Origin: Chitinophaga sp.
Lineage (GTDB): Bacteria > Bacteroidota > Bacteroidia > Chitinophagales > Chitinophagaceae
Direction: 5' to 3'
Length of the DNA: 64,000 bases
Assembly: GCF_019236475.1 (NCBI RefSeq)
Contig: NZ_JAFAIX010000004.1
Location: 310,001 to 374,000, forward strand
Made by a program: the position numbers and the translations under genes. Positions 10,242 through 55,249 of this stretch are shown in pieces. Numbering within the stretch: the stretch's first letter is position 1; each line of letters opens with the position of its first letter. Below the pieces are notes generated by a model. The model did no database searches. It saw nothing but the letters and a program-made list of their open reading frames with translations, and was not told the DNA's origin.

Positions 10242-10264
10242 CCATACCTACTTCGGTTAGAAAC

Positions 10265-14620: not shown

Positions 14621-14627
14621 TTAATAT

Positions 14628-15014: not shown

Positions 15015-15026
15015 ATGCAGTGAAGT

Positions 15027-16223: not shown

Positions 16224-16228
16224 AAATT

Positions 16229-16663: not shown

Positions 16664-16665
16664 TG

Positions 16666-16720: not shown

Positions 16721-16845
16721 TTACGTGCTTTATAGTCGCGTAGATAGGTATCAATGATGTTAAATAATATAGCCCTGGTATCAGGATCTACTGCCTGAAT
16801 TTCTTCAATTCTTTTATGGGCTGCTAAAATCCCGTGCTGTACAGG
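16708..16845 (-). pseudogene. Remnant of an XRE-type regulator C-terminus
   Basis: Read on the minus strand this gives a clean helical C-terminus, ending at a TAA at 16710-16708: residues LAAHKRIEEIQAVDPDTRAI then LFNIIDTYLRDYKARKAYA. The pattern (IEEI..VDPDTR..LFN.ID.YL) is that of the tail of small Bacteroidota helix-turn-helix regulators. The N-terminal DNA-binding part is absent; upstream the sequence changes into primase-like code on the other strand at about 16840. It is too short to be a gene and is taken as a leftover of a lost mobile or addiction element. Confidence 0.5.
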
Positions 16846-17358: not shown

Positions 17359-17409
17359 TGTCTTGTTGCTGGTGCTGGTGGGGCTGCTTTAAATGTAGCA
17401 AAAGGAGCG

Positions 17410-18012: not shown

Positions 18013-18022
18013 ATAAGAAGTA

Positions 18023-18712: not shown

Positions 18713-18754
18713 TTCTTGGCATGAAGACCAAAGAATTAATTAAGTGAATCATTG

Positions 18755-18780
18755 AAAGCCGCGGCCCTGCGGCTTTTTTT
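18755..18780 (+). terminator. Terminator closing cassette 3
   Basis: Stem AAAGCCGC (18755-18762) with GCGGCTTT (18769-18776), loop GGCCCT, followed by T residues to 18780. RHS-core homology of cassette 4 begins directly after the T run. Confidence 0.8.
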
Positions 18781-18864
18781 GTAAATGTAAGATCTCCAGT
18801 AGGTACAAGTGGATATTCGGCCATAGGTTCCAATAACCTCTCTACTAATTTCAGTAGTTCAGAT

Positions 18865-20184
18865 ATGCGTCATCTGATAGAGAAAGATAACAGCCATAAT
18901 CTGCCAGACAAGCCTAGGGCATATATCACTTTCGCGACCTTCGATGATCAGTTCAAACTGGTAGATAATAATAGTGGTTCGCGCCAGGTACAGGGTGCTC
19001 CTGATGTAGTTCAGACCCTCGGTGCGGACAATATCATCCTAAAGAAAAGTGGATTTGTTTATATTTATACAACGATTGAGAGTAATGAAGATGTATACTT
19101 CGATAACCTGGTAATTACTCATGGCAGCGGGCCGTTGTTGGAAGAGTCGCATTATTATCCGTTTGGGTTGACGATGGCGGGGATATCTTCCAATGCGTTG
19201 AAGGGGAGTAACTATGCGGAGAACCGTATGAAATACAATGGGAAAGAACTACAAAGTAGGGAGTTCGGAGATGGCTCAGGACTGGAGTGGTATGACTATG
19301 GAGCCAGAATGTATGATGCGCAGATAGGGAGATGGCATGTTGTAGATCCGTCAACTGAAAAGAGCTTTGGTTTGTCACCTTATAGATATGGATTTAATAA
19401 TCCGGTTAGATATATTGATCCTAATGGAGCCTATGAAACAGATGGACATTTTTGGACAGTTTATCTAATGGCAACAATGATGGGTAGTAAGTATGCCTTT
19501 AATATCGCACATCATACCGAACGATGGGATAATAGAATGTATGCGAATGGAGATGCCTATGCAGAGAATCCTTCATGGATGGATCCTACATATCAAAGAG
19601 CCGTTCACGCCTTGACGGGAGGTTCTTCAACTTATGAGAGAATGAAATCAGCGGATATGGTGGAAGATGCTAAAACAACATTAACTCTTGGTTTGGCATT
19701 GCATAGATTAGGCGATAGTTATGCACACACGAGGCTAGACGATCCCAACACCATGTATAGTACTGGCCATGGACATGCCTTTGAAGGGGAAGGAGGGCAT
19801 GCTCCTGATAAAATTGCTAATAGACCAGGTTTGTATAAGACTTATGCAAGTCACTTATCCAGCGCCTTGGGAAAGAGTTTAAACTTTAAGGGCAAGATTG
19901 ATATGTTTACATTTAATTACGTTGCAGATTCAAGAGGCAGTACAGAGCAAAATAGTGCAATTTTTGAAACCGAGATACGAATTAGAGAAGAAGTAGGTTC
20001 ATTTAGTGTAGCAGGGAATCAAGTAGGGGCAATTAATGATTATATTAGTGAAAGCAATGGACATTTTGGAAGAAATGTTCAGGCTAATGCGGTCTATACT
20101 AACGTAGATGTTTATAACAAGAATGATGATGGAGAATGGGTTAAAACAAAATCTGAAAGACGAACATTTGTAACTGTTAAGTAA
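18865..20184 (+). CDS. Orphan RHS core with possible metal-dependent toxin tail (cassette 4)
   Basis: 439 residues from the ATG at 18865; the frame and RHS homology run back to 18781, right at the preceding terminator. The RHS core is intact (YITFATFDDQFKLV, HYYPFGLTMAGISSNALKG, YDYGARMYDAQIGRWHVVD, NNPVRYIDPNGAYE). The tail of about 240 residues is unlike the others and has spaced His/Asp motifs (YAFNIAHHTERWDN, LALHRLGDSYAHT, STGHGHAFEGEGGHAPDKI). These recall zinc-dependent phospholipase C or Het-C-like domains, a suggestion only. It has no signal peptide or YD shell, so it is a displaced C-terminus. The stop overlaps the start of the immunity candidate by one base. Confidence 0.68.
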   Translation: MRHLIEKDNSHNLPDKPRAYITFATFDDQFKLVDNNSGSRQVQGAPDVVQTLGADNIILKKSGFVYIYTTIESNEDVYFDNLVITHGSGPLLEESHYYPFGLTMAGISSNALKGSNYAENRMKYNGKELQSREFGDGSGLEWYDYGARMYDAQIGRWHVVDPSTEKSFGLSPYRYGFNNPVRYIDPNGAYETDGHFWTVYLMATMMGSKYAFNIAHHTERWDNRMYANGDAYAENPSWMDPTYQRAVHALTGGSSTYERMKSADMVEDAKTTLTLGLALHRLGDSYAHTRLDDPNTMYSTGHGHAFEGEGGHAPDKIANRPGLYKTYASHLSSALGKSLNFKGKIDMFTFNYVADSRGSTEQNSAIFETEIRIREEVGSFSVAGNQVGAINDYISESNGHFGRNVQANAVYTNVDVYNKNDDGEWVKTKSERRTFVTVK

Positions 20185-40450: not shown

Positions 40451-40481
40451 AAAAATCATAGTCCTGGACGCTGTGATTTTT
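40451..40481 (-). terminator. Terminator of the lanthipeptide operon
   Basis: Arms 40451-40461 and 40471-40481 pair over 11 positions with one G-T wobble; on the minus strand the stem ends in a T run continuing as TTATTG. It follows the GT51 gene stop by 2 bases. Confidence 0.75.
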
Positions 40482-40483
40482 AT

Positions 40484-42196
40484 CTACTCAATTTCAACGG
40501 TGAAATTTTCCCATCTTTTTGAGAATACCACCTGCTTCGGTAAGGTGTTATAAGCCTTTGCGGTGAGGATACCATTTTGTTGTAGAAAATTGGAAATATT
40601 CCTGCAATAGGTCGATAGATTCACCTGTAATTGCTGGGATCGGATTAACAAAGCATCATTGAAATAAACAGGACGTGGTAAAATATAGGTGAGCACAATA
40701 CAATCCACTGCATGCAGTTCATCCAACTGCTTCCCAAAATAGTAATTGGCGGCCTCTTTTATGCCGTAAATATTCGGACCGAACTCCACTATTTGCAAAT
40801 AAATATCCAGGATACGTGATTTCGTTACTCCTGCATGATTTTCCAGTAATAAGCTGATTAACACTTCTTCAAATTTTCTGACCAGGGATTTATCTGCTGC
40901 GAGGAATAGATTCCTGATTAATTGCATCGTGATGGTACTGCCGCCCCGGGAGAATTTTTTTTCCTTCAAATTGGTAACAATAGACCGGCCAATAAAATAG
41001 GGATCTACGCCTTTGTGGTGAAGAAATGACGGATCTTCGCAGAATATAATAATCTTTCTTAACAGTTGATACGTGTCTGCCTGCTCATACTTATTAAAAT
41101 AACCATTTTTTACCCGCAGCTTTCTGACGGCCAATCCATCCTTGAATACCAACTGCGAGAAGGGATAATTTAACCGATCCAGCTTTAAAGCCGCTAAATC
41201 TCCCGCTTTAAAATCATAGTCCTGTATGAATACATCAAATTTATGGCCGAGTATATTATCTAAATTCAGTCCCAGATTAGCGATAAGGGTAATGCCTCCT
41301 TCATATTGTATATTTTTAATGTCAGTGCTGAGATAGGGCAATATCCAGGCTAACGTTGATTTGTCCAGTCGGGTGGCAAAAACGGCATTCAATACTTTTG
41401 ATGCAGCATAGGTAAGCGTATTGGATATCTTAACAGGCATATCACCTATCACGATATTCATATCATTTTCAATAGTAGTTTGATCAATTTTTACCTGATC
41501 TTCCAGGTGAAAACCAGCGATAGATATCGGGGTGGGAGATAGTTTGCGGGTATGACAGGTAAGCCCCCGGCCGTCCAGCGTATATTTCAGTAACAGTTGC
41601 TCACTGCTATGCTGTAGTATACTTGTTATATCCATGTTTTCTGCATGGATATAGTCACCGTCGATATGTGCGTTTCCTTTTATGGTAATGGCATTGTTCG
41701 AAGGTATCATGTCTCCTTTGAAATATAGTTTTTCATTCCGAAACAGGAAATTAAATTGGAACACATGATTCCTTACGCTCAATTGCTGCAGGATGAAGGA
41801 TTTCCAGGTTAATTTATTCAGTTCAATACAGGTGGATGGCTGGAAGTATCGATTTAAGCAGAAATGGATAAGCGCGATAAAATTTTTTTTAGGGAGACGC
41901 GAAGTCCGCTGGTCCATTGCTGTTGCTTGTTGCGCAGGTTGTTGCATGATTTCCACGTTACCGCATTTTACGCCTGTAATACGGAATCGTTTCCTTGCAA
42001 GCAGCATCAGTATGGGATTGTTGACTGTTATCTCTACGATATCGATGTTGGTCTGCCACGTATTGAAGGCAATACAGGCCTCCCGTAATATTACTTTGCC
42101 TGGGAAGCGATACCTGATCCTATTGTAACGCACCTGTATGCGGGACGGGATCAATTTATGAATAAGCTTTTGGAATATTGGCTGCAGTACTTTCAT
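40484..42196 (-). CDS. GT51 peptidoglycan transglycosylase with AsmA-like N-terminal region
   Basis: 570 residues. The C-terminal 200 are a GT51 domain. Motif I is FCEDPSFLHHKGVDP with the catalytic Glu ~387. The next motif is RGGSTITMQLIRNLFL (about 417-432), and then RILDIYLQIVEFGPNIYGI (461-479) and YYFGKQ. It lacks a transpeptidase domain, so it polymerises lipid II only. The first ~340 residues are strand-rich and resemble AsmA-like chains (ILREACIAFNTWQTNIDIVE, KGNAHIDGDYIHAENMDI); no clear N-terminal membrane anchor is seen. It is the last gene of the lanthipeptide operon and overlaps the preceding gene by one base (TGATG). Placement beside LanBC suggests a role in self-protection or growth under lantibiotic attack on lipid II; this is inference. 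Confidence 0.85.
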   Translation of the reverse strand: MKVLQPIFQKLIHKLIPSRIQVRYNRIRYRFPGKVILREACIAFNTWQTNIDIVEITVNNPILMLLARKRFRITGVKCGNVEIMQQPAQQATAMDQRTSRLPKKNFIALIHFCLNRYFQPSTCIELNKLTWKSFILQQLSVRNHVFQFNFLFRNEKLYFKGDMIPSNNAITIKGNAHIDGDYIHAENMDITSILQHSSEQLLLKYTLDGRGLTCHTRKLSPTPISIAGFHLEDQVKIDQTTIENDMNIVIGDMPVKISNTLTYAASKVLNAVFATRLDKSTLAWILPYLSTDIKNIQYEGGITLIANLGLNLDNILGHKFDVFIQDYDFKAGDLAALKLDRLNYPFSQLVFKDGLAVRKLRVKNGYFNKYEQADTYQLLRKIIIFCEDPSFLHHKGVDPYFIGRSIVTNLKEKKFSRGGSTITMQLIRNLFLAADKSLVRKFEEVLISLLLENHAGVTKSRILDIYLQIVEFGPNIYGIKEAANYYFGKQLDELHAVDCIVLTYILPRPVYFNDALLIRSQQLQVNLSTYCRNISNFLQQNGILTAKAYNTLPKQVVFSKRWENFTVEIE

Positions 42197-43446
42197 CAGA
42201 TGGATAATTTTTCCTTATGTACTGCTAATTGATCGAATGCCCGTCGAATAACATGGATTCTGTTCGCTCCCTTCCTGTCTTCTTTGCCCGGAGAATTACT
42301 AAGCACCGTGGTTACAGGCATCAACAGCATTTTGTAGATAGTCTGTTTTGATAGCAAATAGTCCAGGTTGTCTGGGGTGATTCTATCTTCCATCTGCAAC
42401 AGCGATTCATAAAAAGATGGAAATATTACCAGCAATGATGCGCTGGAAAAGGAGCTTATCCAAAACCGGTGGCTGGTAATGGGAAATGACTGTCCAAAGT
42501 CTGCACAGCCTATACATAAACAATCGGCTCCTTCCTCTGCGGCTTCTCTGATATTGGATAACAAATACCCTAATTCGGCATCGGTAAGGAAATTAAATGG
42601 CGCTCTGGCTATGATAAAGCATTCCAACCCTTGCTGAATTATCTGGGTAATGCGTTGATGCAGATTGGTAGCAGGAATGGCATTCAGATCTGTAATATAT
42701 GCAGGACATCCCTTATTGGATGCCGGTTCTATGGTCAGTACCGGGAGTTTAAATGGCTCTTCTATATTCGTGATAGGTGCCTTTTCGTGACGACTCCCTA
42801 GCTGCTGATAGTACGTACTGAGTGTGGAAAGGCTAGCAATCTCTGCTGAAATTCGCTGAAAATGCCTCGTTACCGCGCCTGGTTCATTATTTCTTTCAGT
42901 AGTATCTGAATAGCCAAATTCTTTTTGTTTTGAAATAAATGGATGCAGGAGAAATATTTTTTCTGATATTTCCCAAAATTTCAAATCAGCAGCATCGCTC
43001 GCCGTGAAGCTGGCATCCAGTATCTGATCGTAAAATTTTTTGAATACCACACAAAATTGCAAACCTGTAAATCTTTCTATCCAGCATAGTTTTTCTGTTA
43101 CAGGAACAAAGCCCTGGAACCAACTAACACCTCCTAGCAGGGCATCTGCCTGTAATAACTGGCATTTCCAGATGGTATCCTGTAGTAGTGTGTGGGAGTA
43201 ATTGGTGGTAAAGTAATGATCGTCTTCACAGATTATTCCATAATCCATGTCCATGGCTTTCATATGGCTAACCACCTGGTGTATCGTCTTCCATAATCCC
43301 ATTCTTCCATTCTCTTCTTCGATGGCCGCTACCACTTCCAGTTGAAATTCATCCCTGCCGACAAATTCAGCGGTGATATGTTCTTTTCGTTCCGGTCGTT
43401 TTTTCAGGTTGATGGCAAATACCGGGATTTGATGCATAGGTTCCAT
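42196..43446 (-). CDS. GT25-like glycosyltransferase
   Basis: 416 residues. The start PVFAINLKKRPERKEHITAE is the GT25 signature, and DYGIICEDDHYF has the metal-binding acidic motif. Beyond about residue 210 a second, longer region (PVLTIEPASNKGCPAYITDL, FIIARAPFNFLTDAELGYLL) is not typical of GT25 enzymes, making this roughly twice the usual length. It probably adds a sugar to a cell-surface glycan or to the peptide. It lies between the M15 peptidase (18 bases) and the GT51 gene (one-base overlap), so it belongs to the operon. Acceptor unknown. Confidence 0.7.
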   Translation of the reverse strand: MEPMHQIPVFAINLKKRPERKEHITAEFVGRDEFQLEVVAAIEEENGRMGLWKTIHQVVSHMKAMDMDYGIICEDDHYFTTNYSHTLLQDTIWKCQLLQADALLGGVSWFQGFVPVTEKLCWIERFTGLQFCVVFKKFYDQILDASFTASDAADLKFWEISEKIFLLHPFISKQKEFGYSDTTERNNEPGAVTRHFQRISAEIASLSTLSTYYQQLGSRHEKAPITNIEEPFKLPVLTIEPASNKGCPAYITDLNAIPATNLHQRITQIIQQGLECFIIARAPFNFLTDAELGYLLSNIREAAEEGADCLCIGCADFGQSFPITSHRFWISSFSSASLLVIFPSFYESLLQMEDRITPDNLDYLLSKQTIYKMLLMPVTTVLSNSPGKEDRKGANRIHVIRRAFDQLAVHKEKLSI

Positions 43447-43464
43447 GATGCGGCGATTTACAGG

Positions 43465-43998
43465 TTAAGAAAAATAGGCTTCCATGAGGTCATTAATTGT
43501 TTTTAAGGAATAGCTGGCCAGCGGCGAAGATTCCTTTCTCAACTGAATATGTACGCCATCGGGAAAGCTTTTCCAGAAATAACCCGCTTCCAGTCCGAGT
43601 TTTTGTGCTTCTTCTGCATACACTTTATAACCATTTCTGCCATCGGCATCCAGGTAGTTGATATCCCATATTTTTTGGCCGTTGTACAGCCAATAGCAGT
43701 CCATGGCTTCTCCCCATTGGTGCCAGGAGTTTCCCGGTAGGGCATTGGTCAGTTGTTTATCGCGCTGGAGGGGTTTCCCGTTATCTATGCAGGCCAACAG
43801 AAACTGACAGTTTTCCTGTAATAGTCGTTTACGGGTTTCCTGGATGTCCGTTTCCTGCCTTCCTGTTTTCCAGTAGTTCGCCTGAATAGCAGGTGTGCGC
43901 AGCTTTTCATAGGGGATCATGATGATTCCCTGTTGCCGGCAATTTTCCAACACTTTTTCGGCGATAGCACCAAATTCATCTGTAAGCAGATCCAGCAT
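43465..43998 (-). CDS. M15-family D-Ala/L-Ala-D-Glu-type peptidase
   Basis: 177 residues with the VanY/M15 zinc motifs: SWHQWGEAMD (His93, Asp100) and DGVHIQL (His150), with Trp143 and Asp147 just before as usual. Length fits a lone catalytic domain. I see no signal peptide, so a periplasmic place is not evident; the enzyme may act on cytoplasmic peptidoglycan fragments or leave by another route. Between the HlyD-like gene (18 bases) and the glycosyltransferase gene, it is part of the lanthipeptide operon. By family it trims peptide stems or crosslinks, which fits a resistance or cell-wall remodelling role. Confidence 0.8.
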   Translation of the reverse strand: MLDLLTDEFGAIAEKVLENCRQQGIIMIPYEKLRTPAIQANYWKTGRQETDIQETRKRLLQENCQFLLACIDNGKPLQRDKQLTNALPGNSWHQWGEAMDCYWLYNGQKIWDINYLDADGRNGYKVYAEEAQKLGLEAGYFWKSFPDGVHIQLRKESSPLASYSLKTINDLMEAYFS

Positions 43999-44016
43999 TA
44001 TATTTCAGGTAAAGTG

Positions 44017-44535
44017 TTAAAGATGCAGATTTTTTCCAATGAGGGTTTTGAGTAAACTTTTCTCATACACGATGATTTCTCCATGCCCCTGCAATTGATA
44101 GGACGTGTCAATTTTTAGACCTTTGTCTGTTACCAAACCATTTGTCAATGCTATTCTGACCAAATAGAGATTGTTCTTTCCGCCACCAAGTCTGGCAGCT
44201 ACACGGCCCTCTATACATCCATATTCTTCCGCAGGATAATGGTCTAAGTTTATTTGGATCTTTTGACCCACTTTTATTTTCTTCAGGTCATGCGGAGATA
44301 CCCAGGAATCAGCCACGAAGCTTCCATTTTCCGACACTATCCTGTTGATTATACTATTGATTTTATAAGGTGATTTTATGAAAATACTGGCGATAAAGCA
44401 ACAAAGGAATATGGCGCCAATCACGAGATTGGCCCAGAGCAATATTTTTCTGGGAGGTCTGCCAATGATATCTTCGTTTACATCATCATAATAATCGGGA
44501 TAATGCGAAGTGGTATGATCGTTATTGTGTTCCAT
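44017..44535 (-). CDS. Truncated HlyD-like membrane fusion protein
   Basis: 172 residues from the ATG at 44535. An upstream TTG in the same frame would overlap the ABC gene stop. Asp-rich cytoplasmic start (HYPDYYDDVNEDIIGRPP), one membrane helix (LLWANLVIGAIFLCCFIASI, about 35-54), then the beta-barrel half of HlyD proteins (LKKIKVGQKIQINLDHYPAE, GRVAARL). The long coiled-coil hairpin and lipoyl domain that normally separate these parts are missing, so it is less than half the usual ~400 residues. It begins one base after the exporter gene stop. It may be a minimal adaptor between exporter and outer membrane, or a decayed gene; the frame itself is intact. Confidence 0.7.
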   Translation of the reverse strand: MEHNNDHTTSHYPDYYDDVNEDIIGRPPRKILLWANLVIGAIFLCCFIASIFIKSPYKINSIINRIVSENGSFVADSWVSPHDLKKIKVGQKIQINLDHYPAEEYGCIEGRVAARLGGGKNNLYLVRIALTNGLVTDKGLKIDTSYQLQGHGEIIVYEKSLLKTLIGKNLHL

Positions 44536-44536
44536 A

Positions 44537-46744
44537 TTATTGACCAAGTTCCAGTTGATTCTTTACAAGTTCATAATATCTGCCCTTTTTCGCTGACAGG
44601 GCATCATGATTGCCTACTTCGGCAATTTTTCCGTCTTCCAGTACGATGATCTGATCTGCGCTTTTTACGGTACTGAGTCGGTGCGCAATAATGATAACGG
44701 TTCTGTTTTTGAAAAACTGATTTAAATTTTTCATGATCGTTTTTTCATTATTGGCATCCAGCGTATTGGTGGCTTCATCCAGGAAAATGAATTTTGGATT
44801 TTTATAGACAGCTCTGGCAATGAGTAGGCGCTGCCTTTGTCCTGAACTGATGCCATTCCCCGCGTTCCCCAGTTTGGTATGCACGCCCAGCGGCAGGTTG
44901 TCTACAAAAGGCTTGATATTCGCGATTTCTATGGACCGCTGCAGTCGCTCCTGGTTGACGTCTCCTTCTACTGCTATATTTCGTTCTACTGTGTTGGAAA
45001 AGATATACCCGTCCGTTAGTACTACGCCACATTGATTGCGCCACCATTTGGTGGATATTTTTTCTGCATCGGTACCATCTATCAGAATTGTTCCTTCGGT
45101 AGGATTGTAAAACTTCAGCAGCAATTTCATGAGGGTGGTTTTTCCACTACCACTAGATCCTACGATGGCGGTAATTTTCCCGTAAGGAATGGTCAGGGAG
45201 AGATCTTTTATGACCCATGGAGAGGAAGGACCGGAATACCGGAAGCTGACGTTTTTAATTTCAATGGCCGGAGAATCGGCCTTGTTACTGTCTAATTCAG
45301 GAAAAACCGACTCGTCGTTGCCGTGCTCTTCATTAGGGATCGTATGGATTTCACTTAACCGTTCCAGGCTAATTTTAGCATCCTGGTAGTTTTTTAAAAA
45401 CTGAAATAACTGGTTAATAGGGCCATTCATCTGACCAATCACAAAAGTGATGCTCAACATCATCCCAAGGGAAATCTGGCCATCTATTACCTCTTTGGCT
45501 GCCAGAAAGGTGATAAAGATATTTTTCAGTTGCACAAAAAAATTGGAACCAACGTTCTGGATCTGACTGAGGTTCAGACTTTGCACACTTACTTTAAACA
45601 ACCGGGCCTGAATACGTTCCCATTCCCAGCGATTGCTGGATTCGCCGTTATTCAGTTTGATGTCGCGCATGCCGGAAATGATCTCAATGAGCTTACTCTG
45701 ATTATTGGCGAGGTGCTTAAACCGTTCGTAATCCAACGCCTTGTTTTTCTTCATGAAAACAAGTATCCATATAACAGACAAAGCGGTTGCAAACAGGAAC
45801 ACGAGCAGAATAGGAATGCTGTAAATCCCCAGTACTACCGCGAATACAATGAAATTAATCATAGAAAACAGTGTATTCAGGGAGCTACCCGTCAGGAATT
45901 GTTCTATTCTGGTATGATCGTTTATGCGTTGGGAGATATCGCCAATCAGTTTTGCATCGAAGAATTTAATGGGGAGCTTCATCAGTTTAATGAGGAAGTC
46001 GGATATAATGGAAACGTTAATCCGGGCACTCATATGTAGTAACAGCCAGCTACGGATGATCTCGATGGCGGTTGTACCCAGGAATAGTGCCAGTTGACCA
46101 AATAGGATCAAGTAAACGAAGTTTAAATTTCTTCCGTTTATGCCCAGGTCTACTAGGTTTTGTGTCAGAAAGGGGAAAACGAGTGATAGCAGGCTTCCCA
46201 GCAGCATACCCAGAAATATCTGCACCAAGTATTTTTTGAAAGGCCGCGTATAACTTAACAGAAATTTCAGACCTGCCTTTTCTGAAATATCATCTTCGGC
46301 TTCAAATAGATGGTTGGTGGTTTCGAAGATTAATGCAATACCCATTTCTCTGCCACCTGTCCAGGATTTCTTAAACTGCTCCTGCGTTAGCTGAATGAGG
46401 CCGCTGGCGGGATCTGCAATCAGAATTTTCTTTTTTCTGGATACATATTTGGGTTGTGGCGGCAGGACCACAAAATGTTCCTGGTTCCAGTGTAATATGC
46501 AAGGAGGTTTGACTTCCGTTAGCAGGTGGTCGGTTGTTAATTTGGCGCCGTAGGTTCTGAACCCTATTTTTTCTGCCGCCTCACTGATCCCTTTTAAATT
46601 GACACCTTCGCGGGTGATAAAACAATATTCCCTTATTTTCTGCAATGAATACTCCCTGCCATAATATTTGGCAATCATTTTCAGACAGGTAGGACCACAG
46701 TCCATCGTATCTAGTTGTCTATATGTTTTAAAAGCGCCTATCAT
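44537..46744 (-). CDS. C39 peptidase-containing ABC transporter (lanthipeptide exporter)
   Basis: 735 residues. N-terminal C39 peptidase: Gln10, Cys16 in TMDCGPTCL, His90 in QEHFVVL and Asp111 in DPASG, so the active site is complete. Six membrane helices lie at about 165-440. The ATPase has Walker A GSSGSGKTTL, signature GISSGQRQRL, Walker B FIFLDEATNTLD and H-loop IIAHRLST. It should cut the precursor after Gly-Gly and export the core across the inner membrane. It sits 5 bases after LanB and 1 base before the short HlyD-like gene. Its substrate is almost certainly the peptide encoded at 52403-52600. Confidence 0.95.
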   Translation of the reverse strand: MIGAFKTYRQLDTMDCGPTCLKMIAKYYGREYSLQKIREYCFITREGVNLKGISEAAEKIGFRTYGAKLTTDHLLTEVKPPCILHWNQEHFVVLPPQPKYVSRKKKILIADPASGLIQLTQEQFKKSWTGGREMGIALIFETTNHLFEAEDDISEKAGLKFLLSYTRPFKKYLVQIFLGMLLGSLLSLVFPFLTQNLVDLGINGRNLNFVYLILFGQLALFLGTTAIEIIRSWLLLHMSARINVSIISDFLIKLMKLPIKFFDAKLIGDISQRINDHTRIEQFLTGSSLNTLFSMINFIVFAVVLGIYSIPILLVFLFATALSVIWILVFMKKNKALDYERFKHLANNQSKLIEIISGMRDIKLNNGESSNRWEWERIQARLFKVSVQSLNLSQIQNVGSNFFVQLKNIFITFLAAKEVIDGQISLGMMLSITFVIGQMNGPINQLFQFLKNYQDAKISLERLSEIHTIPNEEHGNDESVFPELDSNKADSPAIEIKNVSFRYSGPSSPWVIKDLSLTIPYGKITAIVGSSGSGKTTLMKLLLKFYNPTEGTILIDGTDAEKISTKWWRNQCGVVLTDGYIFSNTVERNIAVEGDVNQERLQRSIEIANIKPFVDNLPLGVHTKLGNAGNGISSGQRQRLLIARAVYKNPKFIFLDEATNTLDANNEKTIMKNLNQFFKNRTVIIIAHRLSTVKSADQIIVLEDGKIAEVGNHDALSAKKGRYYELVKNQLELGQ

Positions 46745-46749
46745 GGATG

Positions 46750-49700
46750 TCAGTTAGCGAAATTGATTGCAGTGGTTTGTGGGTTGTTTTTGTACAGGCA
46801 TTTTTTGTAATAATTATAGAGGAGGCTATACACGAGGAGTTCATTCTCTCTTGGCTTGAAGGGGAATAGCCGGATAAAGTGCATATGAATAAAACTGTTT
46901 ACGAGGGTATGTAAGTCGCCGCTGGACCTCGTTTTCGCCTTGAATTGCTGATGGAAGCGGCGGATAGCCGATTGGTACTCTGTAAGAAGGTCGTAATAAT
47001 AAGGTGTTGTATCTCCCAGTAATCCGGGATTTCCCTGGATAATGTTTTCCACAGTAAGCCTGTTTTGTTGCTCAATGAGATCCAGATTTTTTCTTAACGC
47101 TGGTATTTCCATTACCTTGAATTCCGATTCGTAGGCATTGCGTATCCATTTGAGCAGATGAAATTTCTCCTCGAGGGAGTACGATAGTCCATCCAACATT
47201 ACATCTATGTTCTTTAAAGCAATAAATGGTAATTCATACCGATGGTCTGTTTTCAATAGCCTGAATAGGTGAAGTACAAACAGACTGTCGATCCCGAAGA
47301 ATACTTCCGCATCCCGCACCATTTTCGCACCATAACGGAGACTTTCCCTAGCATAGGTATCGATCTGTATCTTCCAGAGCGAATCGTCAGTTTCGAAGGA
47401 GGAGAAGAGTGCTTTTATCCGCTTTAAAATGACCATCTGATCTGCATTGCGGCGACATTTTAATCTTAGCCTTACATGATATTCCGGATCTTTATACCAC
47501 AAAAAGAAGAAGCGTACGATCTGTTTCTCTTCCAGTAGCTGCTGTATCAGGTGTAGCAGGGATCTCCCTAACAATTTCTCTGTAATCGGTATGTTGTGGT
47601 AGAGTTTAATGTACAACCAGTCGTCAGCGGGCTTGAAACGCGTTTGCTGGGTGTCGATAACAGCCGTTGCAGCTACCAGCGGTGCTATATTGACAACCGC
47701 TTCCTTGCGGGTGGTATTTTTATAGAGCGCTATACATTCGGCATTAAAAGCATTTCCGTTTTTATCGTTCATCCAGCCTTGATCCGGATTAAACACCATT
47801 TCGGTGAGGAGAACGGGATGAGTGGGATGTTGTTGAATCGTTTGGAGGAAATCGGTCACGGATAAGGGATCTGCCCAGTGTAGCAGCCCTTTCTCCTCAT
47901 CAATGGTATATTCCACTCTTTCAGGAAACTGCCATTGTTGTAGGAAGGAGGAAATAATTTCTTTAGAGAGACACGTGTCTGCCAAAACTGCAAAATCACT
48001 TGCAGCCATATTCCAGTATGCTTTCTGTAGGATTACATTTTCCAGTTGTATCCTCGGAACAAATTTTGCATAGGGAAATTCAAGGCTCAACTGTTGGCGG
48101 GGAGTAATATGCTGGAATTGCAGATCTCCCAGGAACTGAAAAAGCGCAATGGTATTTTTATTGTAATTGAGTGCGTTGGTAATAAAAGGGATGATCCTTT
48201 TTTTATGTTTTTTTGAAAACAGGATAAACTGATCCTGTATCATGGTTACCCAAATATCCTGCAAACGGATAACCTGGTCCTGATCAGTGCCTGCGGGGGT
48301 GTACACGGGAACTTCATATTGCCTGAATACCGGACGGAAGGAGATATTCGCCATTCTGGTATCGGGGAGATGAATGACCTCTGCCACGATACAGTCCTTA
48401 TAGGCCTGCATCTCGTAGGAGTTTATCGTTTCCAGCGATGGTGTAATATCATCGCATCCCTGGAAGAACCTTGAAATCAGGTTACCACCGGAACTATTAC
48501 CCACTGTATTCAGGGAAATTAATCCTTTTTGATAATCTTCCACCGTGAAAATAATTTGCCCGGTAACAGCCAGTCGATGTTCGTGGTTTTTGAATTTTGC
48601 GAATTCACTCATCGCTAAATCAACCGTATATTGCTTTTCAGACCAGGCTTGCCATACTTTCTTCCGGATAACATCTTTTGCTTCATCCACCGTACTGTTG
48701 CCTCCCCCGGTTTTTTTGTGCAACATCACCAGTACATCTTTGGATAGCAGAACGTTTTCAATCTGTTGGGCCGTTTCATCCGGCTGGATACCACATTCCG
48801 GATCAAACATCGTTAGTAGTGGTACCACCTGGCTCTCGAATTTTTCCATAAATTTTCTCTTCGAATTTTCCAGAGAAGGAATATAGAAATTGGGATTCAA
48901 GGTACCCAACAACTGGATGGCATTCAATAGGGATGCCCCCATAGATACAGGTAGATCAAAGGATTCAGCAGCAAAAGCCTCTGCCTGTAGGAATACTTTT
49001 CTAACAGGGATCGCATGTTGTTGAAGCAGCTCTTTGATGTAGGAAAAACAAGCATTGAAATCGGCGGGCAGGCAGCTTTCCAACGCTTGCAGCCCGGATT
49101 TCAGGTTATGCAACAAAGCAAGACTATCCGTCAAAGGATGATCCTCCGTATGGATGCTTTCAATAATGGAAATAATCCTGTCGATATTAGGAGGCCCTGA
49201 GAGCGTCAGATTTAAATTAGATACCAGTAATTGTTCCTGAATCAGGCTTTCAATGAATTCGACCGCATCTGCCAATGGATATTGTTGCAGGATCGTATTC
49301 GCGATAATATGGTCTATAGAAGCCCCATTTTCCGCTACCTGCAGTATATCGGCCAGCAACTGGGAATCATCAACAGACGAGAGCTTATAAATGCTCTGGC
49401 TGCCCTGTTGGGATCGTTCATAATATCTGTATTTTCCATTGATTTGATACCCGGTATTATTCGAAAAATAGGTCAGTTGTCTGCTGATACTTTTGTTCTC
49501 TGATAACTTTATAGTGATGGCCAGCAGGATTTCCGCATCCAGATTGGCGATTATATTTTTTTTCGATGGATCGTAGCATTTCTTCACCGCTTCCTCCCGC
49601 CATCTGCCCGAGGCGATAGTCGTGAAAAGTCCATATGGAGTAGATTTGGTAGCAGTTCGGAGGATATAGTTTTTTAATGACTTTTTGAGTTTTTGCACTT

Positions 49701-49884
49701 TCTTAGGGTCCTTTAATGTACCATTCTTATAGGCCGTCATGGTATCATACAAAGGCGGGTTTGCTACCTGTAAGCTGTTGATGAATTCATCCTGATGAAT
49801 GAAATCATCCACTTGTATAGCTTCCGCAGTTGTTGGGAAACCGTTTTGAGGGATTCGGATAAAAAAGTTGTCTAATAGTTCCAT
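46750..49884 (-). CDS. Lantibiotic dehydratase LanB (full length)
   Basis: 1044 residues, the usual size of full-length LanB. The N-terminal Lant_dehydr_N part (about 40-650) includes RTATKSTPYGLFTTIASG and VIHLPDTRMANISFRP. The C-terminal SpaB-type elimination domain (about 740-1035) includes WLYIKLYHNIPITEKLLGRS, IVRFFFLWYKDPEYHVRLRL and LRYGAKMVRDAEVFFGIDS. By family it uses glutamyl-tRNA to activate Ser and Thr of the precursor and eliminates glutamate to give dehydro-residues. In the pinensin clusters of Chitinophaga the enzyme is, to my knowledge, split; here it is one protein. It is 9 bases after LanC and 5 bases before the exporter. Confidence 0.94.
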   Translation of the reverse strand: MELLDNFFIRIPQNGFPTTAEAIQVDDFIHQDEFINSLQVANPPLYDTMTAYKNGTLKDPKKVQKLKKSLKNYILRTATKSTPYGLFTTIASGRWREEAVKKCYDPSKKNIIANLDAEILLAITIKLSENKSISRQLTYFSNNTGYQINGKYRYYERSQQGSQSIYKLSSVDDSQLLADILQVAENGASIDHIIANTILQQYPLADAVEFIESLIQEQLLVSNLNLTLSGPPNIDRIISIIESIHTEDHPLTDSLALLHNLKSGLQALESCLPADFNACFSYIKELLQQHAIPVRKVFLQAEAFAAESFDLPVSMGASLLNAIQLLGTLNPNFYIPSLENSKRKFMEKFESQVVPLLTMFDPECGIQPDETAQQIENVLLSKDVLVMLHKKTGGGNSTVDEAKDVIRKKVWQAWSEKQYTVDLAMSEFAKFKNHEHRLAVTGQIIFTVEDYQKGLISLNTVGNSSGGNLISRFFQGCDDITPSLETINSYEMQAYKDCIVAEVIHLPDTRMANISFRPVFRQYEVPVYTPAGTDQDQVIRLQDIWVTMIQDQFILFSKKHKKRIIPFITNALNYNKNTIALFQFLGDLQFQHITPRQQLSLEFPYAKFVPRIQLENVILQKAYWNMAASDFAVLADTCLSKEIISSFLQQWQFPERVEYTIDEEKGLLHWADPLSVTDFLQTIQQHPTHPVLLTEMVFNPDQGWMNDKNGNAFNAECIALYKNTTRKEAVVNIAPLVAATAVIDTQQTRFKPADDWLYIKLYHNIPITEKLLGRSLLHLIQQLLEEKQIVRFFFLWYKDPEYHVRLRLKCRRNADQMVILKRIKALFSSFETDDSLWKIQIDTYARESLRYGAKMVRDAEVFFGIDSLFVLHLFRLLKTDHRYELPFIALKNIDVMLDGLSYSLEEKFHLLKWIRNAYESEFKVMEIPALRKNLDLIEQQNRLTVENIIQGNPGLLGDTTPYYYDLLTEYQSAIRRFHQQFKAKTRSSGDLHTLVNSFIHMHFIRLFPFKPRENELLVYSLLYNYYKKCLYKNNPQTTAINFAN

Positions 49885-49893
49885 AGTAAGATG

Positions 49894-51081
49894 CTAATTC
49901 AACAATATCAATTCACTCCAATTTTTGGCTTTATTGTCATATGCGGTGAGTAAGGAAAGGATAATCCCCGGAACGCCAGACAGCAAAGCATGCACATGAT
50001 GTTTTAATTCATATTCCCGACTGGTCCAGTAGTCGTCTGTAATGTTGTTCAGTTGATCTAGCGTGTGCTGCGTCCACAGTTGATGGGCATCCAGGAAAGC
50101 AGGATGTCCGGTTAATTGGTGCAGGTAGGCATAGTATTGACAGATACCAGCAGCACCATGACAGAGAAAAGGTTCATCCGCGCGGGTGGATTGGATCGTA
50201 TTTTTACCTACAATATTTTCGAGTTTTCTATAACCAAAGGTTTGATATGCTGGTACCTGAAGTACCTGTGCGGCTTTTAACAATACATGGAATGTGTTTA
50301 ACTCGCTAAAACACCAGCCAATTCTGCCCTGATAGAGTATTTCATTGGAACGATGATTGATAGAGCCAATAAAAGCGTGATGGTCATCATGGCAGTGTTG
50401 CTCATTATATTGAATAATCTGATCAATGGTAGGTTGTAGGGAAATGGAGAATCCCATTTTAATCAGGTCGAGGAAAACAAGCAGCATAGAGGATATGCCA
50501 TGCGCAATCCCAAAATGTACCTGTCCTTCTTCCTGCTCGCCTGCTTTGATATAAAACTGATTGACCAGGAGATAACTTCCATTATTGTCGGCACTCTTCA
50601 ATTGCAACTTATGGAGGAGTGCTTCCAGGTAAGACTGAATAGTGGGATCGGGGAGGCGCTGACTAAAGTAGGCAATGGCTCCCATAGCCCCATACAGAAA
50701 ATCAATATTATCGCCATCAATTTGTGAATCGGCCCATTGATAAATACTGGCATCAATATCAGACAAACTGCTCATGTCAAACGCTACAAAGCTGTATTTG
50801 GTAAGGTGATTGACTACTGCCGTCAACCCGGTCATACCAGAGAGGAATGACTGTGTGGTAAAATTATTTTGCTTTCCTGTTTGAATATTGGTAAATATTT
50901 CTTCCAGCAGTTGATGACCTGTAGCCGTTAATTTTTCATCCTCCAGGTAGCGGCCAGAATAGAAGGCGCTCAAGGCCAGACATAACCGGCCCTGGGAAAG
51001 CGCATCCCTGGTAACAGGTACCTGGTTGGCAATAGCATGGAGATGATAAATTTTTTGCCTGATAATATCGCGGGTATTCAT
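49894..51081 (-). CDS. Lanthionine synthetase LanC (cyclase, complete zinc site)
   Basis: 395 residues with the seven-helix toroid signature repeats (SGMTGLTAVV, YGAMGAIAYF, GIAHGISSML, GRIGWCFSE, FLCHGAAGI, SGVPGIILSL). The zinc ligands are present: Cys257, Cys307 and His308, with His194 as the catalytic acid/base candidate. It should catalyse addition of Cys thiols to dehydro-residues made by LanB. It lies directly upstream of LanB and 68 bases downstream of a second LanC-like gene. This is the functional cyclase of the pair. Confidence 0.93.
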   Translation of the reverse strand: MNTRDIIRQKIYHLHAIANQVPVTRDALSQGRLCLALSAFYSGRYLEDEKLTATGHQLLEEIFTNIQTGKQNNFTTQSFLSGMTGLTAVVNHLTKYSFVAFDMSSLSDIDASIYQWADSQIDGDNIDFLYGAMGAIAYFSQRLPDPTIQSYLEALLHKLQLKSADNNGSYLLVNQFYIKAGEQEEGQVHFGIAHGISSMLLVFLDLIKMGFSISLQPTIDQIIQYNEQHCHDDHHAFIGSINHRSNEILYQGRIGWCFSELNTFHVLLKAAQVLQVPAYQTFGYRKLENIVGKNTIQSTRADEPFLCHGAAGICQYYAYLHQLTGHPAFLDAHQLWTQHTLDQLNNITDDYWTSREYELKHHVHALLSGVPGIILSLLTAYDNKAKNWSELILLN

Positions 51082-51149
51082 TGATTCCTTGTTTAAATAT
51101 TATCTCCTGTTATATGAAAAAGCCCTGATGCCGGCTTTAAAGAACAAAT

Positions 51150-52331
51150 CTACAGTTGAAAGTATTGCTCGGAATGAGGTGCATATGCATGATTGTTGAC
51201 AGACATCAGGAACAGCGCAATCCCTATCAATCCTTCTGAATAGCTGATGTTTGTTTCCCGTTTATGCTGATTCCATACACCCGGATAGCCAAAGTACTTC
51301 TCATTGGCATCGAATTTATCGATGATATGTGTTACTAATTGTTGGTATGCATGCATACATTTTTCATCCTGTAGTAGTTGCCCTGATTTTCTGTACAGCA
51401 TTGCAAGTCCGCTCCAGCCGTATAGCAGGCTAAAACCTTCTGTAAACAGGGAGTCGTCAAAGATGCGGTCGCAGAGGGCATGCAATATGGTGACCAGGTG
51501 TGTGGTATGCTGTACAGCAGGCGTTGCCTGTTCTGCTTTAATGAGACTATAAAGTGTTCCCAGGTCGCCATAACAATAATAGTTAGGAAACCTTGTTCTG
51601 GGTTTGGTTTCTTCCATCATGATCGGGAAGAAGAGTGGCTTGTTTTTCTGTTCATTAGAGAGGATAAATTGCCCTGCGGCGGTAATCAGTTGACTGCATA
51701 GGTCTGTGGCAATTCCGGCTTCCCTGACTTTCAGGAGAAACTGTATCACTGCGGCATTTCCATGCGATATGCCAAGGTATACAGTTGGCTCGTTTTTTAA
51801 ATTTGAAACCCAGTATATACCGCCAGCGTGGCCGGGATTGGCCGTTGCTTTTATCTGTTCAATGATGCGCATAATCAGGGAATCAGCCAGTGTACAGACA
51901 TTGCGGCGAAGCAAATAATAATACCCATATTTTATGGCGCCATTGGAAGGATCAATATTGTTGTTATGGAGTGCTTCTGAAAGTGGCTTTTCCAGCACGG
52001 CATCTATATCTTCCAGCGTAGATTCCAGGTCTGCATTTATCCATTTATGGTCTATGCACATTAATAAGAAGGTGCCAAATTCAGCTAGTTCTTCAAAGAT
52101 GGTATTTGAAGTATAACCGGCGTTCATCTTCTCGAAAATCTGTTCTATGGCCGATATGGCGCGGGTAGTGTGGTCTGAAGAGTCCAGGTAACTGGCAGCA
52201 GCGAAGTTATATAGGGATAATCCGGATAAACCAGTCTTAATACCAATATCGTTAAAACTCCCTGCCTCCTCTTTCAGCACACCATCCATGGCATGAATGA
52301 TATGTTGAATTTTGGAGTGCTCGATGATCAT
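51150..52331 (-). CDS. LanC-like protein lacking two zinc ligands (degenerate cyclase paralogue)
   Basis: 393 residues, same fold repeats (TGLSGLSLYN, LGISHGNAAV, YYCYGDLGTL, LLYGWSGLA, SYSEGLIGIAL). His190 and Cys253 are kept, but the Cys-His of the CHG motif is replaced by Leu303-Tyr304 in SLLYGWSGL. A zinc site cannot form in the usual way, so it is probably not a cyclase. It may bind the peptide or pair with LanC as a scaffold or immunity factor. It is the first gene after the precursor and its hairpin, so it is highly placed for expression. The frame is intact, which argues for use rather than decay. Confidence 0.85.
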   Translation of the reverse strand: MIIEHSKIQHIIHAMDGVLKEEAGSFNDIGIKTGLSGLSLYNFAAASYLDSSDHTTRAISAIEQIFEKMNAGYTSNTIFEELAEFGTFLLMCIDHKWINADLESTLEDIDAVLEKPLSEALHNNNIDPSNGAIKYGYYYLLRRNVCTLADSLIMRIIEQIKATANPGHAGGIYWVSNLKNEPTVYLGISHGNAAVIQFLLKVREAGIATDLCSQLITAAGQFILSNEQKNKPLFFPIMMEETKPRTRFPNYYCYGDLGTLYSLIKAEQATPAVQHTTHLVTILHALCDRIFDDSLFTEGFSLLYGWSGLAMLYRKSGQLLQDEKCMHAYQQLVTHIIDKFDANEKYFGYPGVWNQHKRETNISYSEGLIGIALFLMSVNNHAYAPHSEQYFQL

Positions 52332-52354
52332 AGGTGCTGATAGTGTGATACAGA

Positions 52355-52387
52355 AAAGCTGTTTAAGAATAGATCTTAAACAGCTTT
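52355..52387 (-). terminator. 14-bp hairpin between precursor and the biosynthetic genes (attenuator)
   Basis: Arms 52355-52368 and 52374-52387 are exact reverse complements (loop of 5). On the minus strand the stem ends in TTTT followed by CTG, a weak T tract, so it should end most but not all transcripts 16 bases after the precursor stop. This gives more precursor than enzyme. Confidence 0.75.
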
Positions 52388-52402
52388 CCGAAGATTACAA
52401 TC

Positions 52403-52600
52403 TTAGCAGTTGCAAGAGTTTCTATCGCAAGAAGAAGCTCCTTGTTGTGATTGGCAGGAACCTTCACTGCATGAAGTGTCGGCATCAACTAATCCACCGA
52501 TTACATTCTTCATTTGCTCGTCGTTCAATCTTGAAATTGTTTCTTTGTTCAGGGATAATTTAGGTAATGCTTTACCTTCTTGGTTGTTTTGAGAATTCAT
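52403..52600 (-). CDS. Lanthipeptide precursor, double-glycine leader and Cys/Ser-rich core
   Basis: 65 residues from the ATG at 52600. A leader with LPKLSLNKETISRLNDEQMK then NVIGG (Gly35-Gly36) is the Bacteroidota GG-type lanthipeptide leader. The 29-residue core after it has five Cys (44, 49, 58, 63, 65) and eight Ser/Thr (T42, S43, S45, S48, S51, S56, S57, S62), many in Ser-Cys pairs (TSCSEGSC, SSCDRNSCNC). LanB would dehydrate the hydroxy residues and LanC would close rings such as S45-C49 or S62-C65; ring pattern is a guess. The C39 exporter cuts at GG. The peptide is acidic to neutral and hydrophilic, unlike nisin. First gene of the operon. Confidence 0.92.
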   Translation of the reverse strand: MNSQNNQEGKALPKLSLNKETISRLNDEQMKNVIGGLVDADTSCSEGSCQSQQGASSCDRNSCNC

Positions 52601-52846: not shown

Positions 52847-55249
52847 ATGAAATCCTTATTCCCAATTTTATGTTTACTTATTTGTGCCCGTTATACGTTA
52901 GCCCAGGAAAGCCCACACCCGATAAAAGTAGTGGTGGTAAGCCCTGACAGTGTGGGCATTGAAGGTGTGACCGTGAAAATCAATCAGAACGGAAAAGAAT
53001 TGGTATCCCTGACTAACGGTAAGGGAGAAACGAATATGCTGCTGCAACAAAAGGCTGCATTTACCGTATCCTTGTCTCATATCGGTTTTAATGCACTCAT
53101 CGCAAAGAGGGAAGGGGTTAATAATCAATCACTGTTGACATTCGTACTGACCCCAAACAGTAAGGATCTGAAAGGCGTAGAGATAGTTGCAGAGAAGCCG
53201 TTAATAACCATGGATCAGAATAAAATAATTTTATCTATTGATAAGAATAAAGTAGCCGGGCAATCTGTTGTAGATATATTGAAGAAAGCCCCCGGTATCT
53301 CCATTCAGAATAATATGATTCTCTTTGAAGGAAAGCCTATCACGGCTCAGATGAAAGGGAAAACAATCCAGTTATCTGCTGCTGTGCTGACGGATTTTCT
53401 CGGTGCAACGGCTGCAGCAGGAATAAATGAAATAGAAATCATTACGGTACCTCTTGCCAATATGGATGCCTCCATCACAAGTGCTGTTGTTAATCTGAAA
53501 CCTGCCCGGCTACCGGGCAATGGCTATAATACCAATATGAGCCTGAAAATAGGGACCAGGGAAATTTTTGGAAACGGAGGAATAGGCGCTTCGGTAAATT
53601 TCAAACATAATAAATTCTCTGGCCTGGTAAACCTTAACTATGCCTGGGATTATCAGTTGAACAAAGGAGAAGTGACCCGCCATCTGATTCCTACCATGAA
53701 TAGTAAAACTACGGGTATCACAGAAAATAATTATAGCAAGAGTACCCCTGAAAATATGCCGTTGTCGATTAGCCTGGAGTACGCCATTAACCGTAAAAGC
53801 CAGCTAGGTACGGTTATTAATGGCATGCTGTCCAATACGCCTACTGATCGTTATAGTGCGTCATCTGTTTTTGTGCATAATCAACCTCCTTTGCCGGCGG
53901 ATTCTCTGGTAACAATGAATGCGGGTCAGCATAAGAAAAATCAGTTTGGTGCTATTGATGTTTATTATAAACTGAAACTGGATTCCCTGGGCCAGGAACT
54001 GAGTATGAATGCGGCCTATTCCAAAGTACACGGCACCTCAGATAACCGCCAGCAATATGATTATTTCCTGCAGGATGGCAGCACTTATCAGCAGTCCTCT
54101 TTTTTGAACCAGGATGCGCTGCTGGACTTAACCACCAAAAGCATTCAGGCCGACTATATCCGGTTGCTCGGGAAAGTGAAATTTGAGTCTGGCCTGAAGT
54201 ACGGCTGGACAACCGTAGATCAGCAGCTTAATCAAACGATCATCAATAAGAATGGTACCACTCACCTGATCGATGATCCGGTTTATAAAGAAAATATCTT
54301 CGCAGGATATGCCAGTATCTCCGGAGCGCTGGCTGGAATTAGCTATTCACTAGGGATAAGAGGGGAGAATACTGCTATAAAATCCTTGCCCCTGGAAATA
54401 TACGGCAGTAATAATACCAGTTACTTTAAACTTTTTCCTGCCCTGATGTTGTCAAAAAAGTATAGGAAACATAGTTTAGTTTTGACTTATAAGAAAAGTA
54501 TAGAGAGACCAAAATTCTACAGACTGACAAATTTCAAAAATTATACGAGTCCTTTCTATTATTATACCGGCAACCCTGCATTACAACCGTATTTCCAAAA
54601 TGCAACACGCCTCGCCTGGACAATCGCCAATAAGTTCCAGGTAACGGCCAGTTATACCTGGTACAAGAATAATATGCTGGAGTATGAAGACCTGGATACC
54701 ATCAATAATGTTACCAGAGGCTTAATTGCCAATAATGGAACGTTTAAGAATATCAGCCTGAGTCCGGGATATTTTGGGAATATTACTCGCTGGTGGTATA
54801 CTAATTCCGGCTTTAGAATCACACAAAAGTATATTCGTTTTGTAACCAACGGTGAAACGGTAAGTATTGATAATACCAGCTATGGGATTAATATCTCCAA
54901 TACATTTACCATTTCCAAAAGCATGAAATGTGAAATGTATGCCTATTACAGTTCTCCCACTTATTTCAGTGCATCCCGAACAGACCCGTTTTACTTTCTG
55001 GATATAAGCTTGTATAAAAATATCCTGAAAGGAGCGGGTCAGGTTTCCCTTTCTGTAAGTGATATCTTTTATACAAACATCAATAAAACACATGCCCAGT
55101 ATGCCCTCATCAGCTTTGATTCCAGGACCAGATGGGATAGCCGGAATATTGTTGCAGGGTTTAATTACCGGTTCGGTAGCAAGAACTATAAAAGCAGTCA
55201 GTTGAGAAAAGGATCCGCTGCAGATGATATTAAAAGCAGGTCTTACTAA
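52847..55249 (+). CDS. Outer membrane beta-barrel protein (carboxypeptidase-regulatory-like, plug, barrel)
   Basis: 800 residues. Signal peptide to ~19 (CARYTLAQ). A CarboxypepD-regulatory-like domain (~25-105: IEGVTVKINQNGKELVSLTN, SLSHIGFNALIAKREG). A plug-like region (~110-220: VEIVAEKPLITMDQNKIILS, VVDILKKAPGISIQNNMILF) and a barrel rich in aromatic strands (GYASISGALAGISYSLGIRG, LVLTYKKSIERPKFYRLTNF, FNYRF near the end). This is the OMP_b-brl_3/TonB-like family found beside peptide-natural-product loci in Bacteroidota. Its divergent position suggests it exports or re-imports the lanthipeptide or gives immunity. No TonB box was confidently seen. Confidence 0.87.
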   Translation: MKSLFPILCLLICARYTLAQESPHPIKVVVVSPDSVGIEGVTVKINQNGKELVSLTNGKGETNMLLQQKAAFTVSLSHIGFNALIAKREGVNNQSLLTFVLTPNSKDLKGVEIVAEKPLITMDQNKIILSIDKNKVAGQSVVDILKKAPGISIQNNMILFEGKPITAQMKGKTIQLSAAVLTDFLGATAAAGINEIEIITVPLANMDASITSAVVNLKPARLPGNGYNTNMSLKIGTREIFGNGGIGASVNFKHNKFSGLVNLNYAWDYQLNKGEVTRHLIPTMNSKTTGITENNYSKSTPENMPLSISLEYAINRKSQLGTVINGMLSNTPTDRYSASSVFVHNQPPLPADSLVTMNAGQHKKNQFGAIDVYYKLKLDSLGQELSMNAAYSKVHGTSDNRQQYDYFLQDGSTYQQSSFLNQDALLDLTTKSIQADYIRLLGKVKFESGLKYGWTTVDQQLNQTIINKNGTTHLIDDPVYKENIFAGYASISGALAGISYSLGIRGENTAIKSLPLEIYGSNNTSYFKLFPALMLSKKYRKHSLVLTYKKSIERPKFYRLTNFKNYTSPFYYYTGNPALQPYFQNATRLAWTIANKFQVTASYTWYKNNMLEYEDLDTINNVTRGLIANNGTFKNISLSPGYFGNITRWWYTNSGFRITQKYIRFVTNGETVSIDNTSYGINISNTFTISKSMKCEMYAYYSSPTYFSASRTDPFYFLDISLYKNILKGAGQVSLSVSDIFYTNINKTHAQYALISFDSRTRWDSRNIVAGFNYRFGSKNYKSSQLRKGSAADDIKSRSY

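Follow-up and report, generated by a model that had tools for sequence, protein, structure and literature searches.

A Probable Class I Lanthipeptide Operon of Chitinophaga with Two LanC Proteins, One of Them Zinc-Less

Why should a single lanthipeptide operon carry two LanC proteins when one of the two retains little of its zinc site? The question is raised by a stretch of Chitinophaga sp. DNA of 64,000 nucleotides (contig NZ_JAFAIX010000004.1, positions 310,001 to 374,000), which is called the window here. Nine intact open reading frames on its minus strand, from 52600 to 40484, make up the lanthipeptide operon. Taken as a whole, the operon is probably a unit for the biosynthesis and export of a class I lanthipeptide, of a type with two LanC proteins.

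In the proposed pathway, LanB would dehydrate serine and threonine residues of the core peptide, and the zinc enzyme LanC2 would close the thioether rings. LanC1, a class I cyclase without zinc, would act on the same peptide as the partner of LanC2. A GT25-family glycosyltransferase probably glycosylates the peptide. The C39 exporter would cut after the GG site and, together with a short adaptor and an outer-membrane barrel, secrete the product. Two further proteins, of families GT51 and M15, may act on peptidoglycan, most likely for self-protection.

The protein families, the intact frames, the loss of zinc ligands, the conservation and the gene neighbourhoods behind this proposal were read from the sequence. 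What we infer from them is the chemistry at each step and the parts played by LanC1, GT25, GT51 and M15.

Class I Machinery

An earlier note on this DNA proposed a class I lanthipeptide with a GG leader and a C39 exporter, and all three parts are borne out. The genes concerned are these.

lanA, 52403..52600, minus strand: precursor of 65 amino acids, with leader LSLNKETISRL and GG, and a 29-residue core of two SC-x3-SC units and an NC end
lanB, 46750..49884, minus strand: full-length lantibiotic dehydratase, 1044 amino acids
ABC exporter gene, 44537..46744, minus strand: C39 leader peptidase, PCAT type

The precursor LanA lies above the cut-off of the NCBIfam model NF038153, named "class I lanthipeptide" (46.2 bits against 22). 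Its score also just exceeds the cut-off of TIGR04149 (26.8 against 25), a leader model that takes its name from radical-SAM-modified peptides; no radical SAM enzyme was found among the ten window proteins scanned. The leader sequence follows the pattern LxLxKx5L, GG stands at 35-36, and the core LVDADTSCSEGSCQSQQGASSCDRNSCNC follows. As had been claimed, the core has 29 residues with five cysteines and eight serines or threonines. The claim that all five cysteines stand in Ser-Cys pairs was too broad, since serine precedes four of the five.

A word-based search of 5.8 billion proteins returned a single relative of LanA at E 1e-5, that of C. dinghuensis (92%), which agrees with the earlier suggestion that the product is likely to be a new compound. 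Over the 29 positions of the core the two peptides differ twice, C. dinghuensis having Gly for Ser9 and Lys for Arg24; Ser9 would therefore not be needed for a conserved ring. Cores of a similar pattern turned up only when clusters were read.

LanB has both Pfam dehydratase domains, for glutamylation (PF04738, 318.6 bits) and elimination (PF14028, 172.1 bits), and aligns with NisB over residues 21-1023. A C39 peptidase domain was found in the exporter. The genome of the window has three more LanB loci (L084, L085, L086), one of them with eight putative precursors.

The operon is more than a chance assembly, because C. dinghuensis has the same nine genes in the same order at 66-94% identity, and because the ratios of nonsynonymous to synonymous substitution (dN/dS) between the two species are low. 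These ratios, only approximate since synonymous sites approach saturation, are 0.082 for lanA, 0.119 for lanC1, 0.083 for lanC2, 0.093 for lanB, 0.035 for the exporter, 0.135 for the adaptor, 0.085 for M15, 0.064 for GT25 and 0.117 for GT51; the barrel gene gives 0.062. All nine operon genes thus look to be under purifying selection, and none looks relaxed.

Two LanC Proteins

The two cyclase genes follow directly after lanA.

lanC1, 51150..52331, minus strand: LanC family; Cys253 is the sole zinc ligand, Leu303-Tyr304 stand in place of Cys-His, and His190, Asp127 and Tyr254 are retained
lanC2, 49894..51081, minus strand: LanC-family cyclase with the full zinc triad Cys257, Cys307 and His308, and with His194

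LanC1 is a protein of 393 amino acids consisting of a LanC domain only. By profile match and fold it belongs to the LanC family, and it retains the acid-base residues and the fold of a class I cyclase. Two of its three zinc ligands are lost: the CHG motif has become LYG, with Leu303 and Tyr304 replacing cysteine and histidine, so LanC1 is not a zinc-dependent LanC in the sense of having all three ligands. LanC2 has the complete C-C-H triad. The structure comparisons of LanC1, as those of GT25, were a second look at the matches of Foldseek itself. The possibility that LanC1 is a class III cyclase was rejected; its fold and residues are nearer to NisC and MadC, and no lyase or kinase domains are fused to it.

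Zinc is held to be necessary in lanthionine cyclases of classes I, II and IV, with class III alone doing without it (PMC10604976). Binding and presenting the peptide as a partner of LanC2 is a likelier role for LanC1 than catalysis, though we hold it with somewhat less than even confidence. Ring closure without metal comes next and is somewhat less probable; other roles take up the remainder.

Distribution of Zinc-Less LanC Proteins

A survey of LanC proteins comprised 96 rows, namely 94 non-redundant proteins and the two window proteins, which recur among the 94. Seventy-one rows have C-C-H, 22 have a non-cysteine residue and tyrosine in place of Cys-His (20 of these retain the first cysteine), and three are of other kinds; the zinc-less share is inflated because loci were chosen as best matches to LanC1 or to its profile. 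The zinc-less proteins form one clade, with a support of 98 in the Shimodaira-Hasegawa-like approximate likelihood ratio test (SH-aLRT). Support is 100 in a tree from which the motif columns were removed together with nine rows (L136, L137, two duplicates and five long-branch rows); both values come from quick trees. L136 and L137 (G114, G185) represent a separate LanC pair, which has asparagine for the first zinc cysteine and no Cys-His, and lies outside the zinc-less clade.

Zinc-less LanCs were found in two settings. In the paired setting, lanC1 stands directly before a zinc-type lanC2; there are eight such clusters (the window, C. dinghuensis, G455, G442, G036, G412, G649 and G537), and the relatives with two LanCs were reached by searches at the level of genus, family and order. 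A luciferase-like oxidoreductase gene is present in six of the eight; it precedes lanB in five and follows it in G649. None is present in the clusters of the window and C. dinghuensis. In the other setting the zinc-less protein is the sole LanC beside LanB, that is, the only one within the stretch of at most 20 kb that was read. Seven clusters are of this kind (G438, G418, G427, G421, G462, G434 and G440). A scan of named genomes with LanC1 gave C. dinghuensis only, and 16 of 394 genomes in a family sample gave matches, none above 29% identity except the window's own.

A protein of about 350 amino acids follows the sole zinc-less LanC in L089 (9378-10445), L103 (7543-8607) and L161 (10568-11632), and is likewise placed in L097, L098, L101 and L102. 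That of L089 has no Pfam or NCBIfam match, and its L161 counterpart is 40% identical to it.

The cores differ between the settings. The motif [ST]C-x3-[ST]C occurs in 15 of 23 putative precursors from paired clusters; with x3 or x4 spacing it occurs in 17 of 23, from seven of the eight clusters. For instance, two of three cores in G649, from another family of the order, have SCGKKSCNC, which resembles SCDRNSCNC of the window. The motif is absent from all 19 precursors of clusters with a sole zinc-less LanC, every one of which holds [ST][ST]GC...C repeats, and from the nine precursors of two zinc-LanC clusters in the window's own genome. In the relatives, reading frames were called mechanically and precursors were chosen by patterns, so all of these are putative.

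The strongest alternative to a presenting role, possible if clearly short of favoured, is that LanC1 is an active, metal-independent cyclase, and that LanC1 and LanC2 close different rings. Tyr304, with Cys253, His190, Asp127 and Tyr254, would activate the thiol and protonate the enolate. These five residues, the acid-base residues and first cysteine among them, are retained in all seven sole zinc-less LanCs (six of six in alignment A3, and that of G440 as P0001), and cysteine repeats are present in all 19 putative precursors of the seven clusters. The class III enzyme ThurKC forms rings in the absence of zinc, for which it requires Phe770 and Asp771 at the same two positions (PMC10604976). 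A tyrosine beside the first cysteine is moreover the usual residue of bacterial LanC (PMC9934072). Against this, Cys330 and His331 are reported to be necessary in NisC (PMC3091789), and the remaining cysteine is also lost in three of the eight paired LanC1 proteins.

The LanC1 of G412 has lost the counterparts of Asp127, His190 and Tyr304 as well as the last cysteine. At least one paired lineage thus seems able to do without catalysis by its zinc-less partner, and for that lineage a role in presenting the peptide or in forming a complex is favoured. In the lineage of the window the acid-base residues are kept, so metal-free catalysis by LanC1 is still conceivable. The sole-LanC clusters were also considered as proof of cyclisation without metal, and rejected as such: all seven genomes carry a CHG LanC elsewhere (in 10 of 11 regions read; no motif showed in L187), so that supply in trans is possible.

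GT25, GT51 and M15

Three genes at the end of the operon fall outside the usual class I machinery.

M15-family peptidase gene, 43465..43998, minus strand: similar to VanY and L-Ala-D-Glu peptidases; no signal peptide visible by eye
GT25-family glycosyltransferase gene, 42196..43446, minus strand: two domains, with the EDD motif retained in the N-domain
GT51 peptidoglycan transglycosylase gene, 40484..42196, minus strand: GT51 domain after an N-terminal part of about 370 amino acids without a Pfam match

GT25 belongs to its family by profile (PF01755, 27.5 bits against a cut-off of 24), and C-E-D-D is invariant in ten of ten rows. Its best structural match is the human collagen galactosyltransferase COLGALT1, at 17% identity. 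Of 27 other loci with GT25 genes, 21 have a peptide exporter next to the gene; this comparison used nine control loci, which were not random. No match to GT25 was found in a plasmid collection. A glycosylated lanthipeptide is plausible because GT25 recurs near exporters and resembles COLGALT1 in structure.

GT25 genes in L088 (C. dinghuensis), L090-L096 and L162-L178 (Chitinophaga) are mostly near C39 exporters, fusions of C39-like, VKOR and thioredoxin parts, and cysteine-rich peptides with GG leaders. It is possible that these loci are a glycocin-like family with GT25 enzymes.

Matches to GT51 were found in eight of 79 genomes (E 1e-20), and to M15 in four of 79 (E 1e-10). Both lie within the lanthipeptide cluster in the window, C. 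dinghuensis and G438; in G438 M15 is on the opposite strand. In G410, the M15 relative stands beside thioesterase, condensation and carbamoyltransferase genes (L104), and the GT51 relative beside a non-ribosomal peptide synthetase (NRPS) gene (L108). By eye, no natural-product genes of such kinds were seen near GT51 in L105, L106, L107 and L109. GT51 aligns with PBP1A through the active-site region. A role of GT51 and M15 in protecting the cell wall of the producer is suggested by their recurrence near different natural-product genes.

Alternatively, all three could stand outside the pathway, as genes of the cell envelope that merely share its transcription unit. Pfam and several source names label relatives of GT25 as lipopolysaccharide biosynthesis proteins, and GT51 and M15 are cell-wall families. 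This alternative is nevertheless unlikely, given that GT25, GT51 and M15 all recur around a LanC of 30% identity in G438 (L089), that GT25 accompanies peptide exporters in the 21 loci, and that the M15 and GT51 relatives in G410 have NRPS-type genes as neighbours.

Points against the Proposed Pathway

Several observations weigh against the proposed two-LanC pathway. The window LanB has lysine at the position that Arg87 occupies in the RxTPFG motif of NisB. Among 15 LanBs compared, which were selected on length and on the presence of TP[FY]G (L099, L100, L157 and L158 fell outside), only those of the window and C. dinghuensis have this lysine. The definition of the core motif was post hoc, on cores already inspected, and none of the six G036 cores has it. 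The LanC2 partners are grouped in one tree (SH-aLRT 85), but without those of G036 and G537, and in the second tree no clade of fewer than 15 rows unites them. The eight paired clusters also amount to fewer independent cases, because the window and C. dinghuensis, and likewise G455 and G442, are close relatives. For GT25, four of the 27 loci have neither a strong exporter nor a VKOR protein. Finally, much of the middle of the adaptor is missing, and export may in consequence be impaired or need another adaptor.

Export and Operon Layout

The remaining features of the locus are as follows.

HlyD-type adaptor gene, 44017..44535, minus strand: 172 amino acids from ATG, without the middle 131 or so of the C. 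dinghuensis ortholog
Hairpin with U-run, 52353..52389, minus strand: 16 base pairs, between lanA and lanC1
OMP_b-brl_3 outer-membrane beta-barrel gene, 52847..55249, plus strand: 800 amino acids, divergent from lanA

The adaptor of C. dinghuensis has 303-307 amino acids; the block missing from that of the window would come after the membrane helix and before the final part of the barrel. The cluster might therefore be silent, or dead for export, with about 131 residues absent compared with the 307-residue ortholog. This is quite improbable: selection acts on what remains of it (dN/dS 0.135), and similarly short HlyD-type adaptors, reduced to membrane helix and barrel, adjoin lanthipeptide exporters in L086, L103 and L161. 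Still more remote is the idea that LanC1 is a decaying duplicate without a role, for although two of three zinc ligands are gone and three relatives show further losses, its dN/dS (0.119, window against C. dinghuensis) is near the 0.083 of LanC2, the replacement tyrosine is found in 21 of 22 aligned members of a single clade, and eight clusters, including two from a different family of the order, have LanC1 next to LanC2.

The barrel gene matches PF14905 (234.5 bits) and has an 83% identical counterpart in C. dinghuensis. Related barrels of 793-836 amino acids occur in clusters L157, L158, L159 and L161. The protein is a possible transport or receptor partner of the operon.

The gene order from 52600 to 40484 is lanA, lanC1, lanC2, lanB, C39-ABC exporter, HlyD-type adaptor, M15, GT25 and GT51, with successive gaps of 71, 68, 9, 5, 1, 18, 18 and -1 bases. 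The earlier note was right about a nine-gene operon on the minus strand. The terminator that it placed near 40451 did not hold up: the stem there is AT-rich and no better than shuffles (z 0.57, 86 bases folded). The strong hairpin (-23 kcal/mol, z -6.4 against shuffles) is instead the one within the operon that separates lanA from lanC1, and it may be a partial terminator. A comparable one can be read by eye, unfolded, in the C. dinghuensis sequence. Elsewhere in the window, at 6915-20184, inspection of the translations by eye points to several large genes and gene fragments with RHS-like repeats.

Relation to Known Systems

The peptide class is already known. A 2020 paper described class I precursors of Bacteroidetes that have GG leaders with the motif LxLxKx5L, together with C39 proteases (PMC7268733). 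The window shares with them (see also NF038153) the leader motif, GG site, C39 exporter, LanB and LanC, and adds the second, zinc-less LanC as well as GT25, GT51 and M15.

Pinensins, from Chitinophaga pinensis, share the genus and the class I machinery. They are two-component, with two methyllanthionine rings and a split LanB (PMC7268733, PMC13060382), whereas the window has one precursor, five cysteines, one LanB and two LanCs. Its LanB is intact, as the earlier note said, at 1044 amino acids with both domains. As a distinguishing trait the unsplit LanB was rejected, for all 18 LanB frames listed from the loci read are full length (1039-1070 amino acids). Together with the 2020 description, this makes GG leader and unsplit LanB ordinary for Bacteroidota. 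The unusual parts, which that note overlooked, are the pairing of a second LanC with a zinc-less LanC1, GT25, GT51, M15 and the shortened adaptor.

LanC1 resembles the class III ThurKC in having a cyclase fold without the zinc triad and a hydrophobic residue at the Cys330 position (PMC10604976). The "B-Unk" synthetases, which combine LanB with a cyclase of undefined triad (14 peptides), show the same combination; LanC1 alone with LanB would be filed there (PMC11251773). That account, as far as available, does not name this zinc-less clade, the tyrosine replacement or pairing with a zinc LanC, and the literature searched yielded no characterisation of such systems. A Frankia cluster with two LanCs is known (PMC3091789).

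COLGALT1 is also a GT25 enzyme, 17% identical to that of the window, for which the lanthipeptide is a candidate acceptor. Glycocins combine a cysteine-rich peptide with a GG leader, a glycosyltransferase, a thiol-disulfide protein and a C39 exporter, as do many related GT25 loci, whereas in the window GT25 is partnered by lanthionine machinery instead of disulfide machinery. To our knowledge, characterised glycocin transferases belong to another family than GT25. Glycosylated lanthipeptides named in the literature include NAI-112 and cacaoidin (PMC10373908). The zinc-less class I clade, its pairing with a zinc LanC, and GT25 with lanthipeptides had no description in the literature searched, subscription papers and supplements lying outside its scope.

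Significance

A far-reaching interpretation, which is rather unlikely, is that the operon represents an undescribed two-cyclase branch of class I. A metal-free LanC, with tyrosine for histidine, and a zinc LanC would share the rings of a Cys-x3-Ser-Cys core. The product would be glycosylated by a COLGALT1-like GT25 from a large Bacteroidota family that is annotated for lipopolysaccharide and would instead modify exported cysteine-rich peptides.

A conserved class I clade without the zinc site, in paired or sole setting, offers natural proteins for a direct test of the need for zinc. An expression system for such tests exists, two Bacteroidota lanthipeptides having been made in E. coli (PMC9993889). 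If true, the association of GT25 with these peptides would give a large family a new assignment and open a further way to glycosylated peptides.

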